Source: Sulfurihydrogenibium sp. YO3AOP1 | GTDB taxonomy: Bacteria; Aquificota; Aquificia; Aquificales; Hydrogenothermaceae | DNA length: 64,000 bases | Assembly (NCBI RefSeq): GCF_000020325.1 | Contig: NC_010730.1 | Span: 546,001 to 610,000, forward strand | Reading direction: 5' to 3' | Shown: positions 28,469 to 58,320 of the stretch, piece by piece | Layout: every line of letters starts with the position of its first letter | Position numbering within the stretch: position 1 is the stretch's first letter | Made by a program: the position numbers and the translations under genes | Notes under the pieces: generated by a model | Database searches by the model: none | What the model saw: the letters and a program-made list of their open reading frames with translations, nothing else | What the model was told of the DNA's origin: nothing

Positions 28469-29316
28469 TTTTTAATTGCCTCTGGTCTTTTTACTGGTGG
28501 TTCTGGTAAATATTGGACAGCAGGAATTCCTGTCGGTTGAGGATATAAATCCATCAAAGCATAAACTTCTTCCGGCATTTGGGTGCTTACGTTTAGTCCC
28601 AAATATTTTAGATAATCGTATGTAAGCGGATAGTCATGCGTCCATTTTCCTTGAGATAGTTCATTCGCTATAAATTCAGCCTTTTCTTCACTATGCCCTT
28701 TTTTTATAAGAATTTCTTTAACTGTGTCTTTCATCTGCTTTAAAGCTTTTTTACTCATGTCAATTTTAACAAGCGTTTGGTCATCTATATCTTTTGGGTC
28801 TTTTAACTGTTCTATCCTTACTAAGGATGCTGCCGGTTCCGTTCCAAGCTGTGGGTCAACAGGTCCTAAAACTGCAAATGGGTCCATGACTATTTCATCT
28901 GCAGCCAATGCTATTAACGTCCCCCCAGACATTGCATAGTGTGGTACTATTACCCTTACTTTTGCAGGATGTGCTACCAAAGCTCTTGCTATCTGTGTTG
29001 CAGCCAATGCTATTCCGCCGGGAGTATGTATTATAAAATCTATAGGCTTATCTTTTGGAGTCATTCTGATTGCCCTTAAAACAGCCTCTGAATCTTCTAT
29101 GGTTATCATCCTCATCATAAAAAATCCAAACAACGACCTTGTCTCTTGTCTATGGATTAATGTTATTACCTTAGAGCCGTATTTTTCTTCTATAGCTTTT
29201 AATATCCTCTCTCTGCTCCACTGAAGCATCTGGGCTTGAATAACAGGAAATATAAACATGAAGAGGAAAATTAACCAAAATAACTGTCCTATGAAAAAAT
29301 AACCTGAATCATTCAT
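28465..29316 (-). CDS. Serine dehydrogenase-type ClpP-fold membrane protease (SDH/PF01972)
   Basis: A 283-residue protein with an N-terminal membrane helix (residues 6-27), then a ClpP/crotonase-fold domain. FIIHTPGGIALAATQIARAL around 93-112 and HYAMSGGTLIALAADEIVMDP around 126-146 carry the oxyanion-hole glycines and the probable nucleophile serine in AMSGGT. The family is annotated serine dehydrogenase proteinase but is really a putative membrane serine protease. It overlaps dUTPase upstream and DUF502 downstream. Confidence 0.82.
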   Translation of the reverse strand: MNDSGYFFIGQLFWLIFLFMFIFPVIQAQMLQWSRERILKAIEEKYGSKVITLIHRQETRSLFGFFMMRMITIEDSEAVLRAIRMTPKDKPIDFIIHTPGGIALAATQIARALVAHPAKVRVIVPHYAMSGGTLIALAADEIVMDPFAVLGPVDPQLGTEPAASLVRIEQLKDPKDIDDQTLVKIDMSKKALKQMKDTVKEILIKKGHSEEKAEFIANELSQGKWTHDYPLTYDYLKYLGLNVSTQMPEEVYALMDLYPQPTGIPAVQYLPEPPVKRPEAIKK

Positions 29317-29992
29317 TGCTTTTTACCTCTAAATTATTAAAAACATTTCTTAACTTTTCTTCAAGTTCATCTTTTGAGCCTACTTCTTTGATTACATTTA
29401 ATAAATATTTGTTATCCTCTAAGCCACCAATTACTTTTTGATAGTTTCCAGATTTATAACCTTTTTCTTGTCTTATATGATTGAGTATATTTTTGCCGAT
29501 ATAAAGAAGGTATAATTTATCAAAATTAAAGACTTCCGAGACAACCATACCAAAGAAAAATAACACGCCTTTTAAATCTTGCCTTAAGGCTTTTTCTGCT
29601 ATTCTTTCTATCAAATAGATGTAAATTTTCGTATTTTCTTCTTCTTTATACTTTTGTGCTAAATAATGGTTAATATAATCACCTTCTATATCTTTTAAAT
29701 CTGAGAAGTCTTTGTTTAAACCTTTGTAAAAATAACTTAAATTCGGGTTTCTCTCCATAAGAACCAATGATAAAACAAAATGAAATATATCAGCAAGTTC
29801 AATTTCAAGATTTTCTATATCTGGTTCAATCTTTTTCCACCATTTCCAAGGCAAAGATTCAACAGATTCAGCACATTCAAGCCATATAGCTCTAAAAAAG
29901 TCTTCTTTTGTTCTTATATTTTTCCAATTTATATCAATCTTTTTGTTAAGTTCATCTTGCAGTTTTAAACATTCATTTACTTTCTCTTTCAA
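29309..29992 (-). CDS. Dimeric dUTPase-like NTP pyrophosphatase
   Basis: A 227-residue all-helical protein of the dUTPase_2/MazG superfamily. The metal-binding ExxE...ExxD arrangement is visible in WLECAESVESLPWKWWKK (about 33-50) and ENLEIELADIFHF (about 60-72). The WKWWKK stretch between them is characteristic of dimeric dUTPases. These enzymes remove dUTP (and dUDP) to keep uracil out of DNA. The start is TTG 29992 with AGAGGAGG upstream. That leader is the remnant of the GH57 3' end duplicated when the repeat element at 30033-30224 entered. Confidence 0.8.
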   Translation of the reverse strand: MKEKVNECLKLQDELNKKIDINWKNIRTKEDFFRAIWLECAESVESLPWKWWKKIEPDIENLEIELADIFHFVLSLVLMERNPNLSYFYKGLNKDFSDLKDIEGDYINHYLAQKYKEEENTKIYIYLIERIAEKALRQDLKGVLFFFGMVVSEVFNFDKLYLLYIGKNILNHIRQEKGYKSGNYQKVIGGLEDNKYLLNVIKEVGSKDELEEKLRNVFNNLEVKSNE

Positions 29993-30007: not shown

Positions 30008-30032
30008 AAAAATGTTGTATTTATACTCTAAA
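30008..30032. repeat. Left 25-bp direct repeat flanking element copy 7 (likely target duplication)
   Basis: This stretch matches 30225-30249 at 23 of 25 positions (AAAAATgtTGTATTTATACT against AAAAATacTGTATTTATACT, then CTAAA in both). The two copies bracket the mosaic element 30033-30224. The right copy lies inside the GH57 coding end, so the left copy is best explained as a duplication made when the element inserted. Confidence 0.75.
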
Positions 30033-30224
30033 GCTATGTCGGAGTAAGAAATTCAATAAAAGTAGGAGATTCTTCGCTTCGCTCAGAATGACAACTTTAC
30101 TTTCGTAAGGGCGATTCATGAATCGCCCCTACTCTTCCGCTTTTTCACTTTCCTTGTCATCCTGAGGACGTAAGTCCGAAGGATCTCCTTACTTAAATTT
30201 ATAAAAATACCTAATTCCTTACCC
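30033..30224. mobile_element. MITE-like mosaic element, copy 7, with flanking direct repeats
   Basis: A 192-bp element. The left end, TATGTCGGAGTAAGAAATTC, is related in inverted form to the right end, AATTCCTTACCC. Inside, in order: GAGATTCTTCGCTTCGCTCA with GAATGAC (30066-30092), the perfect palindrome GGGCGATTCATGAATCGCCC (30109-30128), and GTCATCCTGAGGACGTAAGT with CCGAAGGATCTCC (30157-30188). It lies between dUTPase and GH57 and provides the last Gly codon and TAA stop of GH57. It encodes no protein, so movement would need a transposase supplied in trans. Confidence 0.78.
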
Positions 30225-31760
30225 AAAAATACTGTATTTATACTCTAAAAATTCTAAATACTCTTTATCTATTTTACCCATCTCTAACTGTTCTTTCAAT
30301 GTGTAAAAATGGCTTATATGTTCTTTCAATCTGTTTGTTGCATACTGCTGGGCTGTTTCTGTTGTTATTAAAAATGTCCAATCACTGCTTTGAGCCAGCA
30401 GGAGCTGAACCTCTAGCTGCTTTAAGACTCTTTGATTGTTATATTTAGATTTTAAGCTTTCTAAATCTCTTTCCATTTGATGTAAATATCTATAAACCCA
30501 GTGATTTTTTGGATTTATCCATACTTCATAGTATCCCTTATCTCCCCACGATGATGGAGATGGTCTAATTACTTGGTTTTCTGGATATATGTTCAGATAT
30601 TCAGATGGGGTAATTGCTTTAAATTGTTTATGTTTATCAATTTCTTTAAAAAGATTATATAAAAATTCTGGTCCTTCAAACCACCAATGGCCAAACAGTT
30701 CTGCATCGTAAGGAGAAACTATTAACGGCAGTCTATCCATAAATTTGCCAAGATGTTCCATTTGTTTTTCTCTTGATATATGAAAATGTCCAGCATGAAC
30801 CTTTGTCATCTCTTTTGCCTTATCTGGGTCATATGGTTGTTTGTGGGCAAGGTCAACATCTCCGGTTACTCTGTAATATTTTATTCCTGTATAAACTCTA
30901 ATTCCATCCGGGCTTATATAGTCTTTGATATAATCAAATTCAAGGTCAAAACCTATATCTCTATAAAAGTCTCTGTAGTTAGGGTCTCCTGGGTATCCTT
31001 CCTTTGCACTCCATACTTGCTTTGAAGACTCTGGGTCCCTTCCAAATGCTGCCACTTTTGATGGTGTATAAATAGGTGCAAAAACGCCGTATCTTGGAGT
31101 TGGCTTTCCAAAAAGCAATCCATGAGAATCTAAAAAGAAATACTCTATTCCATGCTTAGCTAATATACTATCAAGTCCATCGTAATATGCACATTCTGCA
31201 AGCCAAATGCCTTTTGGCTTTTTCCCAAAAAATTTTTCGTGAGTTTTGATTGCAAGCTCAATTTGTCTCTCTACAGATTGAATTTCTGGTTGAAGTAAAG
31301 GCAAGAACCCATGGGTTGCATTGCAAGTAATTATTTCTATATATCCTTTTTCTTCAAAATATCTATAACCGTTTAAAACATTTTGATTTAAAAATCCGTA
31401 AAAAAAATCTTTAATATAAGTAAACAGCTTGTTATAAAAATTTGCCAGCTTGTTAAATGTTTCACTTGCTCTTGTTCTCTTGATTTCTTTTTCTGTAAGG
31501 GATAGCATTTTGTCAAGATATTTTTTGTACTTTTCAATCAGCAGCCGGTCTGATAGCATATATGCTAAAGGTGGAGTGATAGAGGTTGTTATTCTAAAAT
31601 CTACACCTTCTTCTTCAAGCTTCTTAAATCTCATCAAAAGTGGTATGTATGTTTCTGTTATAGCTTCAAAAAGCCAATGTTCTTCAAGAAAGTATTCATA
31701 TTCTGGGTGTTTTACAAATGGCAAGTGGGAATGTAATACTGGCATCCAGTAGCCTTTCAT
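30219..31760 (-). CDS. GH57 1,4-alpha-glucan branching enzyme
   Basis: A 513-residue GH57/DUF1957 enzyme introducing alpha-1,6 branches into glycogen. The N-terminal HSHLPFVKHPE, the catalytic nucleophile E189 in WLAECAYY and the acid D352 in SPYDAELFGHWW align with E184 and D353 as I recall them for the Thermus enzyme. The C-terminal helical domain ends EYKYSIFG. AGGAGGG precedes ATG. Its final Gly-stop codons come from the terminus of the neighbouring repeat element, so the original C-terminus was altered by that insertion. Confidence 0.88.
   Translation of the reverse strand: MKGYWMPVLHSHLPFVKHPEYEYFLEEHWLFEAITETYIPLLMRFKKLEEEGVDFRITTSITPPLAYMLSDRLLIEKYKKYLDKMLSLTEKEIKRTRASETFNKLANFYNKLFTYIKDFFYGFLNQNVLNGYRYFEEKGYIEIITCNATHGFLPLLQPEIQSVERQIELAIKTHEKFFGKKPKGIWLAECAYYDGLDSILAKHGIEYFFLDSHGLLFGKPTPRYGVFAPIYTPSKVAAFGRDPESSKQVWSAKEGYPGDPNYRDFYRDIGFDLEFDYIKDYISPDGIRVYTGIKYYRVTGDVDLAHKQPYDPDKAKEMTKVHAGHFHISREKQMEHLGKFMDRLPLIVSPYDAELFGHWWFEGPEFLYNLFKEIDKHKQFKAITPSEYLNIYPENQVIRPSPSSWGDKGYYEVWINPKNHWVYRYLHQMERDLESLKSKYNNQRVLKQLEVQLLLAQSSDWTFLITTETAQQYATNRLKEHISHFYTLKEQLEMGKIDKEYLEFLEYKYSIFG
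30225..30249. repeat. Right 25-bp direct repeat flanking element copy 7
   Basis: This is the second copy of the repeat at 30008-30032, 217 bp away, with two mismatches. It lies wholly within the last codons of the GH57 branching-enzyme gene, which makes it the probable original target sequence. Confidence 0.75.
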
Positions 31761-43699: not shown

Positions 43700-43787
43700 A
43701 AACTAACCTCAAAGTTATTAAAAAATAGTACAATCTAATTTATAAATTTTATCATAAATTTCAAAGAGTTATTTGATTTAAAGGGAT

Positions 43788-54664: not shown

Positions 54665-54689
54665 ATTGATTTAATATATTTTACAATAT
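54665..54689. repeat. Left 25-bp perfect direct repeat flanking element copy 12
   Basis: It begins ATTGATTTAATATATTTTAC and is identical over all 25 bases to 54865-54889, exactly 200 bp away. The two copies bracket the mosaic element. This is best explained as a target-site duplication. Confidence 0.85.
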
Positions 54690-54864
54690 ATATCGGATGA
54701 GAAATTCTATAAAAGTAGGAGATTCTTCACTTCGCTCAGAATGACAAATAAGGTTATCCTTCCTTTAATGCTTATTAATCAGCCTTTCGCTGTCATCCTG
54801 AGGACGTATGTCCGAAGGATCTCCTTTGCAAATTTTATAAAAACCACTAATTTCTTACCAAGGT
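54690..54864. mobile_element. MITE-like mosaic element, copy 12, with perfect 25-bp flanking repeats
   Basis: A 175-bp element in the divergent gap between the YqiA-like gene and GDPD. The left end is ATATCGGATGAGAAATTCTA; the right end, read inward, is ACCTTGGTAAGAAATTAGTG. Inside are GAGATTCTTCACTTCGCTCA with GAATGAC (54720-54746), and GTCATCCTGAGGACGTATGT with CCGAAGGATCTCC (54792-54824; inner palindrome GGACGTATGTCC at 54802-54813). It has no open frame. It shows the outer ends of the family most clearly. Confidence 0.82.
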
Positions 54865-54889
54865 ATTGATTTAATATATTTTACAATAT
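54865..54889. repeat. Right 25-bp perfect direct repeat flanking element copy 12
   Basis: This is the second, identical copy of 54665-54689. The remaining gap, 54890-54966, is open in the GDPD frame from 54901 but has no standard start codon. Confidence 0.85.
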
Positions 54890-58101: not shown

Positions 58102-58320
58102 TAGGTAAGAAATCCAAAAGATTACAAGATTCTTAGATGTAGTTGTGGAATTTTAAAAGTGAGAGGTTATGGATGTTGGAGCAATTCATGAATTGCCCGT
58201 ACGAAAAGGTGAAAAATAAGAAGTAAGGCATCTATTGTATTTGTTATTCATCACTCTCCACTTACTCTGAAGGCTTTAGCCTTATCAAAACTTCCAATTT
58301 CCTACCCGACACATTCCTAT
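58102..58320. repeat. Dispersed mosaic intergenic element, long variant, copy 15
   Basis: This is a second copy of the long variant at 8147-8380 with the same block order: TAGGTAAGAAATCC terminus, ATTACAAGATTCTTAGATGT, GTGAGAGG, GGATGTTGGAGCAATTCATG (palindrome GCAATTCATGAATTGC at 58181-58196), AATAAGAAGTAAGGCATCTA, TTGTTATTCATCACTCTCCA, CTTACTCTGAAGGCTTTAGC, and the terminus CCAATTTCCTACCCGACACA. Copies 1 and 15 share a recognisable alignment across about 220 bp. 58321-58541 holds no recognised gene. Confidence 0.75.

Follow-up and report, generated by a model that had tools for sequence, protein, structure and literature searches.

The window, the whole stretch of 64,000 nucleotides analysed here, belongs to a hot-spring bacterium whose genome is a single contig of 1,838,442 bp. 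On its minus strand lie a gene for a GH57 branching enzyme (30219..31760; PF03065, Glyco_hydro_57, and PF09210, BE_C) and, downstream of it, a dUTPase_2 gene (29309..29992; PF08761). Two 25-mers stand at their boundary, at 30008..30032 (AAAAATGTTGTATTTATACTCTAAA) and 30225..30249 (AAAAATACTGTATTTATACTCTAAA): they are identical at 23 of 25 positions and enclose 192 bp. Counting length minus 3 per mismatch, the pair scores 19, and the best of 400 random pairings of left and right flanks from the repeat family described below scores 8. The right copy is still coding, reading LEYKYSIF in the GH57 frame, and the frame then closes with GGG TAA at 30224-30219 (stop codon 30219-30221). The left copy reaches the Shine-Dalgarno region of the dUTPase gene, whose start is at 29992. 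In each of these respects the original prediction, which saw here an element bracketed by direct repeats and lying between gene end and ribosome-binding region, was accurate. The outermost bases of the element and the A-run of the target look alike, so that the duplication is 22-26 bp long; the outer four A of the GH57-side copy may be the element's own.

It had also been claimed that the insertion changed the C-terminus of the GH57 protein and pushed the dUTPase gene away, and that close relatives should reveal both changes. They do. In four element-free congeners (G001, G002, G003 and G005) the protein ends in KNSIFSDIL* or KNSIFSEIL* and the dUTPase gene follows 11-14 nt on, which implies the same original distance for the window strain; in the window genome the protein ends in KYSIFG* and 226 nt separate the genes. 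The insertion is also present in S. yellowstonense SS-5 (G006), with the end SIFG* and a spacer of 214 nt. On the dUTPase side of SS-5, the sequence TTAGAGTA-AAATATAGTATTTTTAGCGATTAGGAGG reads LE-KYSIFSD*, has a one-base gap relative to the GH57-side copy, and overlaps the Shine-Dalgarno sequence: it is the original end of the GH57 gene, displaced. The corresponding relic in the window genome, the copy at 30008..30032, has lost its stop (AACATTTTTAGAGGAGG). Another genome, G004, keeps the SIFG* end and the element at the GH57 site. The gene that comes after them there (contig C21; L052, L096, L097) is not the dUTPase gene, and a search of that genome, made without a positive control, returned no dUTPase match; the locus has possibly been rearranged, or partly deleted, at the element. 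For the enzyme itself, a large effect of the new stop codon seems unlikely, because the change is confined to the last few residues and the BE_C profile is matched as far as residue 512 of 513.

The 192 bp at 30033..30224 are a miniature inverted-repeat element (MITE), non-autonomous, as the family alignment, the copies elsewhere in the genome and the strength of its hairpin attest; it is assigned to the plus strand by the orientation that puts the ACGTCGGG end on the left. Its left terminal inverted repeat, ATGTCGGAGTAAGAAATTC (plus strand, 30036..30054), follows the consensus ACGTCGGGTGAGAAATTC, and the SS-5 orthologue of this repeat carries ACGTCGGGTTAGAAATTC. The right one, at 30212..30224 on the minus strand, reads GGGTAAGGAATTA inward and contains the GGG TAA that serves as last codon and stop of the GH57 gene. 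In the family alignment the consensus of this end is ACCTTGGGTGAGAAATTAG, of which GGG TAA forms the inner part, and the prediction that the gene closes on the terminus of the element thus holds. Further inside, a left arm (GGAGATTCTTCGCTTCGCTCAGAATGACA, 30065..30093, plus strand) pairs with a right arm (TGTCATCCTGAGGACGTAAGTCCGAAGGATCTCC, 30155..30188, plus strand), and the loop between them holds a 28-nt palindrome, GTAAGGGCGATTCATGAATCGCCCCTAC, at 30105..30132; a sequence similar to this palindrome lies near 58175-58206. The region 30030-30226 folds far more stably than its shuffles (z of -5.05). The right arm also contains a small hairpin, AGGAC-loop-GTCC, found in the window at 30166-30178 and 54802-54814 for example. 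Of 78 copies sampled, 72-75 preserve its pairs, and changes from A-T to C-G and from C-G to T-A occur; because the copies are related, the independent pair changes are fewer than these counts.

The original prediction called this interval a second copy, as if the elements were a pair, and here it falls short: they form a large family. In the window genome, from which the copies were sampled, the right-arm motif occurs at 217 places, its reversed control at none, and the element ends (ACGTCGGGTGAGAAATTC / ACCTTGGGTGAGAAATTAG) are found at 149 places with at most 2 mismatches. The family member at 54690, used as a query, has at least 50 matches across that genome. A search of the relatives gave about 60 matches each in G004 and SS-5; G001, G002, G003 and G005 return 2-3 matches each and, among the matches listed, these are genes only, with no element. 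Short (175-192 bp in the window), non-coding, with inverted-repeat ends and a high copy number, the family has the properties of MITEs. A literature search found no description of it in Sulfurihydrogenibium, the terms MITE, repeat element and repetitive are all absent from a genome comparison of Aquificales (PMC4227106), and an Rfam search of the window reported a single tRNA and nothing else.

The member at 54690..54864 (175 bp, plus strand) gives the clearest view of an insertion. It is flanked by an exact 25-bp repeat (54665..54689 and 54865..54889), and the site is empty in both G004 and SS-5, where the 25-mer stands in a single copy: this proves a target duplication of 25 bp. The second case invoked by the original prediction is thus genuine, and the equality of the two lengths is a coincidence, since duplications in the family span 22 to 38 bp, with one exception of 8-9 bp. 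That exception is a MITE specific to SS-5, at the site corresponding to window positions 43726-43733 (L091 / L258), which repeats TAGYACAA and is lacking at this site in both G004 and the window genome; it means that short duplications occur, or that one copy was trimmed. Across the window genome, 11 of the 35 elements with two recognisable ends have direct repeats of 24-33 bp scoring at least 10, a score reached by none of 400 random flank pairings, and a convincing long duplication is absent in the other 24. This last count, and the two mismatches between the 25-mers at the GH57 gene, are what one would cite for the alternative that the gene end was duplicated at an earlier time, in tandem or segmentally, and that a repeat-rich spacer grew between the copies without any transposition. 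We consider such a history extremely improbable: the spacer belongs to the element family and has its defined ends, and the sister copy at 54690 has a clean empty site with one copy of the repeat.

What could have moved a non-autonomous element? A candidate was found in the window genome itself, at G000:C1:348800-349642: an element of 843 bp with the ends of the MITE, inverted repeats that match at 15 of 16 positions, a perfect 24-bp duplication (TAATATAGAATTATTATAACAAAA) and a transposase-like ORF of 241 aa. Compared with full-length relatives of 288-299 aa, this ORF lacks about 40 residues, including the catalytic GD(K/R)GY, and its product is therefore presumably inactive; no intact copy of this insertion sequence (IS) was seen in the window genome. 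Full-length copies exist in G001, G005, G068, G079 and others, and of the 23 IS loci found in the genome collection, 22 are in Aquificota and one is in an Acidobacteria MAG. Intact copies have one ORF for a DDE transposase of about 290 aa, and measure 963-966 bp between ends in G001, G005 and G079, and up to 968 bp between duplications. At 20 sites in these three genomes the duplications are exact, 23-38 bp long (median 27), with AT first in 17 and AT last in 16. Through the copy in its own genome and the intact relatives elsewhere, the MITE thus has its ends in common with an autonomous element; the common sequence is the terminal ~17 bp only. The ends of the MITE are those of an Aquificota IS family with long (23-38 bp) duplications, a point that goes beyond the original prediction.

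Classifying this IS group is less simple. Its best NCBIfam match is IS982 (NF033520), with 34.8, 48.5 and 28.4 bits against a cut-off of 130. Against IS1182 (NF033551), the transposase scores 11.5 bits, below the cut-off of 270; IS1182 elements make target duplications of up to 60 bp. A search of the PDB with the transposase profile found no relative, and plasmid records gave no match to the transposase. IS982 elements are defined by ends beginning with AC, direct repeats of 2-10 bp, and no K or R at position +6 or +7 from the catalytic E (PMC7335449). The likeness is real: about 1 kb in length, a single ORF of about 290 aa, AC ends with T at position 9, and a DDE transposase. The duplications, in contrast, are 23-38 bp long, and K245 is as invariant in our alignment (A1) as E238, which we took by inspection as the catalytic residue, so that a lysine stands at E+7. 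We would therefore describe the group, which scores below the NCBIfam cut-offs, as IS982/IS5-like rather than as a member of IS982.

The end likeness could be incidental, and the MITE could have been moved by another transposase, IS481-like, IS3, IS256 or IS1202-type. Transposases of the rve and IS256 types occur in the clade, and relatives of IS1202 make duplications of 16-28 bp (PMC10132070). The length of the duplications had indeed prompted us to consider IS1202; we dropped the idea when no examined rve locus had MITE ends on both sides. Compared by profile and description only, the long-duplication subgroup of IS1202 has just the long duplication in common with our group: its transposases are TnsB-like and the ISAjo2 group has TGT...ACA ends, whereas the ends here are AC...GT and the Pfam and NCBIfam scans report DDE_Tnp_1 and IS982/IS5, with no rve (PMC10132070). 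The window genome also has DDE_Tnp_1 loci at 827640 and 1777718; these two were tried as partners and lack such ends. The IS982/IS5-like elements have both MITE ends together with long, AT-rich duplications, and we regard mobilisation by another transposase as very unlikely.

The flanks of both kinds of element also say something about where they insert. Among 71 IS flanks, 40 have a TATAAT, on either strand, within 32 bp of the junction, against 4-6 in each 32-bp window farther out; since both flanks of one IS carry its duplication, they are not independent, and the contrast is about eightfold. For MITE flanks, the numbers are 23 of 90 in the first 32 bp and 4-8 farther out. In IS flanks, the centres of TATAAT are concentrated at a distance of 10-16 bp to the junction, in the middle of the duplication; their positions are broader in MITE flanks. 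The motif occurs in 31 of 55 sequences for an expected 13.4, and none of 500 dinucleotide-preserving shuffles reached 31. Outward clean ORF starts mostly fall within the first 60-120 bp of the flanks, with counts per 60-bp bin of 17, 8, then 0-3 for the IS, and 15, 9, then 0-6 for the MITE. This analysis was devised post hoc from the flanks, with distal windows and shuffles as controls. Dyad symmetry in the targets does not exceed what composition predicts (124 versus 121.5, sd 4.3). From the sequences at hand, the family seems to insert into the -10 regions of promoters, a short way ahead of gene starts. At one site (L199), TGTTATAAT-TTGTCAGATA is followed by GGCGCGTAGCTCAGAGGGAGAGCGC, which to our own eye resembles a tRNA.

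Such an excess could also arise by survival, if insertions had no target preference, were lost from within needed genes, and persisted in AT-rich intergenic DNA near gene starts: AT content is indeed 78% in the first 32 bp of the flanks and 61-63% beyond. Survival does not predict, however, that TATAAT should hold a set position, 10-16 bp from the junction and midway along the duplication, nor that it should exceed shuffles of the same sequences that preserve dinucleotides; we hold it to be unlikely as the explanation of the excess. If the -10 region is indeed the target, one can imagine, tentatively and with more doubt than confidence, that the transposase recognises either the -10 box as such or promoters that RNA polymerase has melted, and that it joins the ends at the two edges of the opened region. 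In that event, the duplication would be as long as the bubble with its flanks, and the core of a promoter would be doubled at each insertion: one -10 copy would stay beside the host gene, and an intact promoter would point into the element.

The explanation that we favour, with a probability of roughly nine in ten, is that insertion of a MITE replaced the end of the GH57 gene, mobilisation by an IS982/IS5-like transposase being its most likely cause. From the common ends and the long duplications we infer that the transposase of this Aquificota family acted in trans, and the following geometry. The target would be AT-rich, with a TATAAT-like -10 box at its centre, and the DDE transposase would attach the AC...GT ends to its two strands at positions separated by about 23-38 bp, most often 24-28 bp; repair of the gaps would then duplicate the intervening stretch. 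At the locus studied here, the insertion would have occurred in an ancestor shared by the window strain, SS-5 and G004, across the end of the GH57 gene and the start region of the dUTPase gene. The GH57-side copy of the target now runs straight into the element, whose terminal GGG-TRA supplied the last codon and the stop, turning SIFSD(IL)* into SIFG*. The dUTPase gene kept the other copy, which includes the former gene end as well as the Shine-Dalgarno sequence and is decaying. Any effect on expression would be a further consequence.

The locus thus documents a mobile element that replaced the stop codon of its host gene, the discarded end being still readable in a sister strain. The available part of a review of bacterial MITEs (PMC10969869) depicts elements much like ours, shorter than 300 bp and non-coding, with terminal inverted repeats, target duplications and high copy number. 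They differ, as far as that part goes, in the length of the duplication and in that here the end of the element supplies the stop codon of the host; the in-frame fusions that it describes are those of the Rickettsia palindromic elements, and it never uses the term 'stop codon'. For a DDE transposase of about 290 aa, duplications that are long, vary in length and have a -10 box at their centre are unusual, and the IS group lends itself to direct tests of target choice, of stagger geometry, and of the expression of downstream genes after insertion. In G004, several contig ends carry the final ~35 codons of the transposase, with 97% identity to the copy in the window genome, which suggests that this genome holds many near-identical and possibly active IS copies. 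Finally, some IS copies that lack a duplication have exchanged flanks: in G079, the right flank of L240 is the left flank of L243, and in G086, the left flank of L201 is the right flank of L202, which indicates recombination between IS copies.
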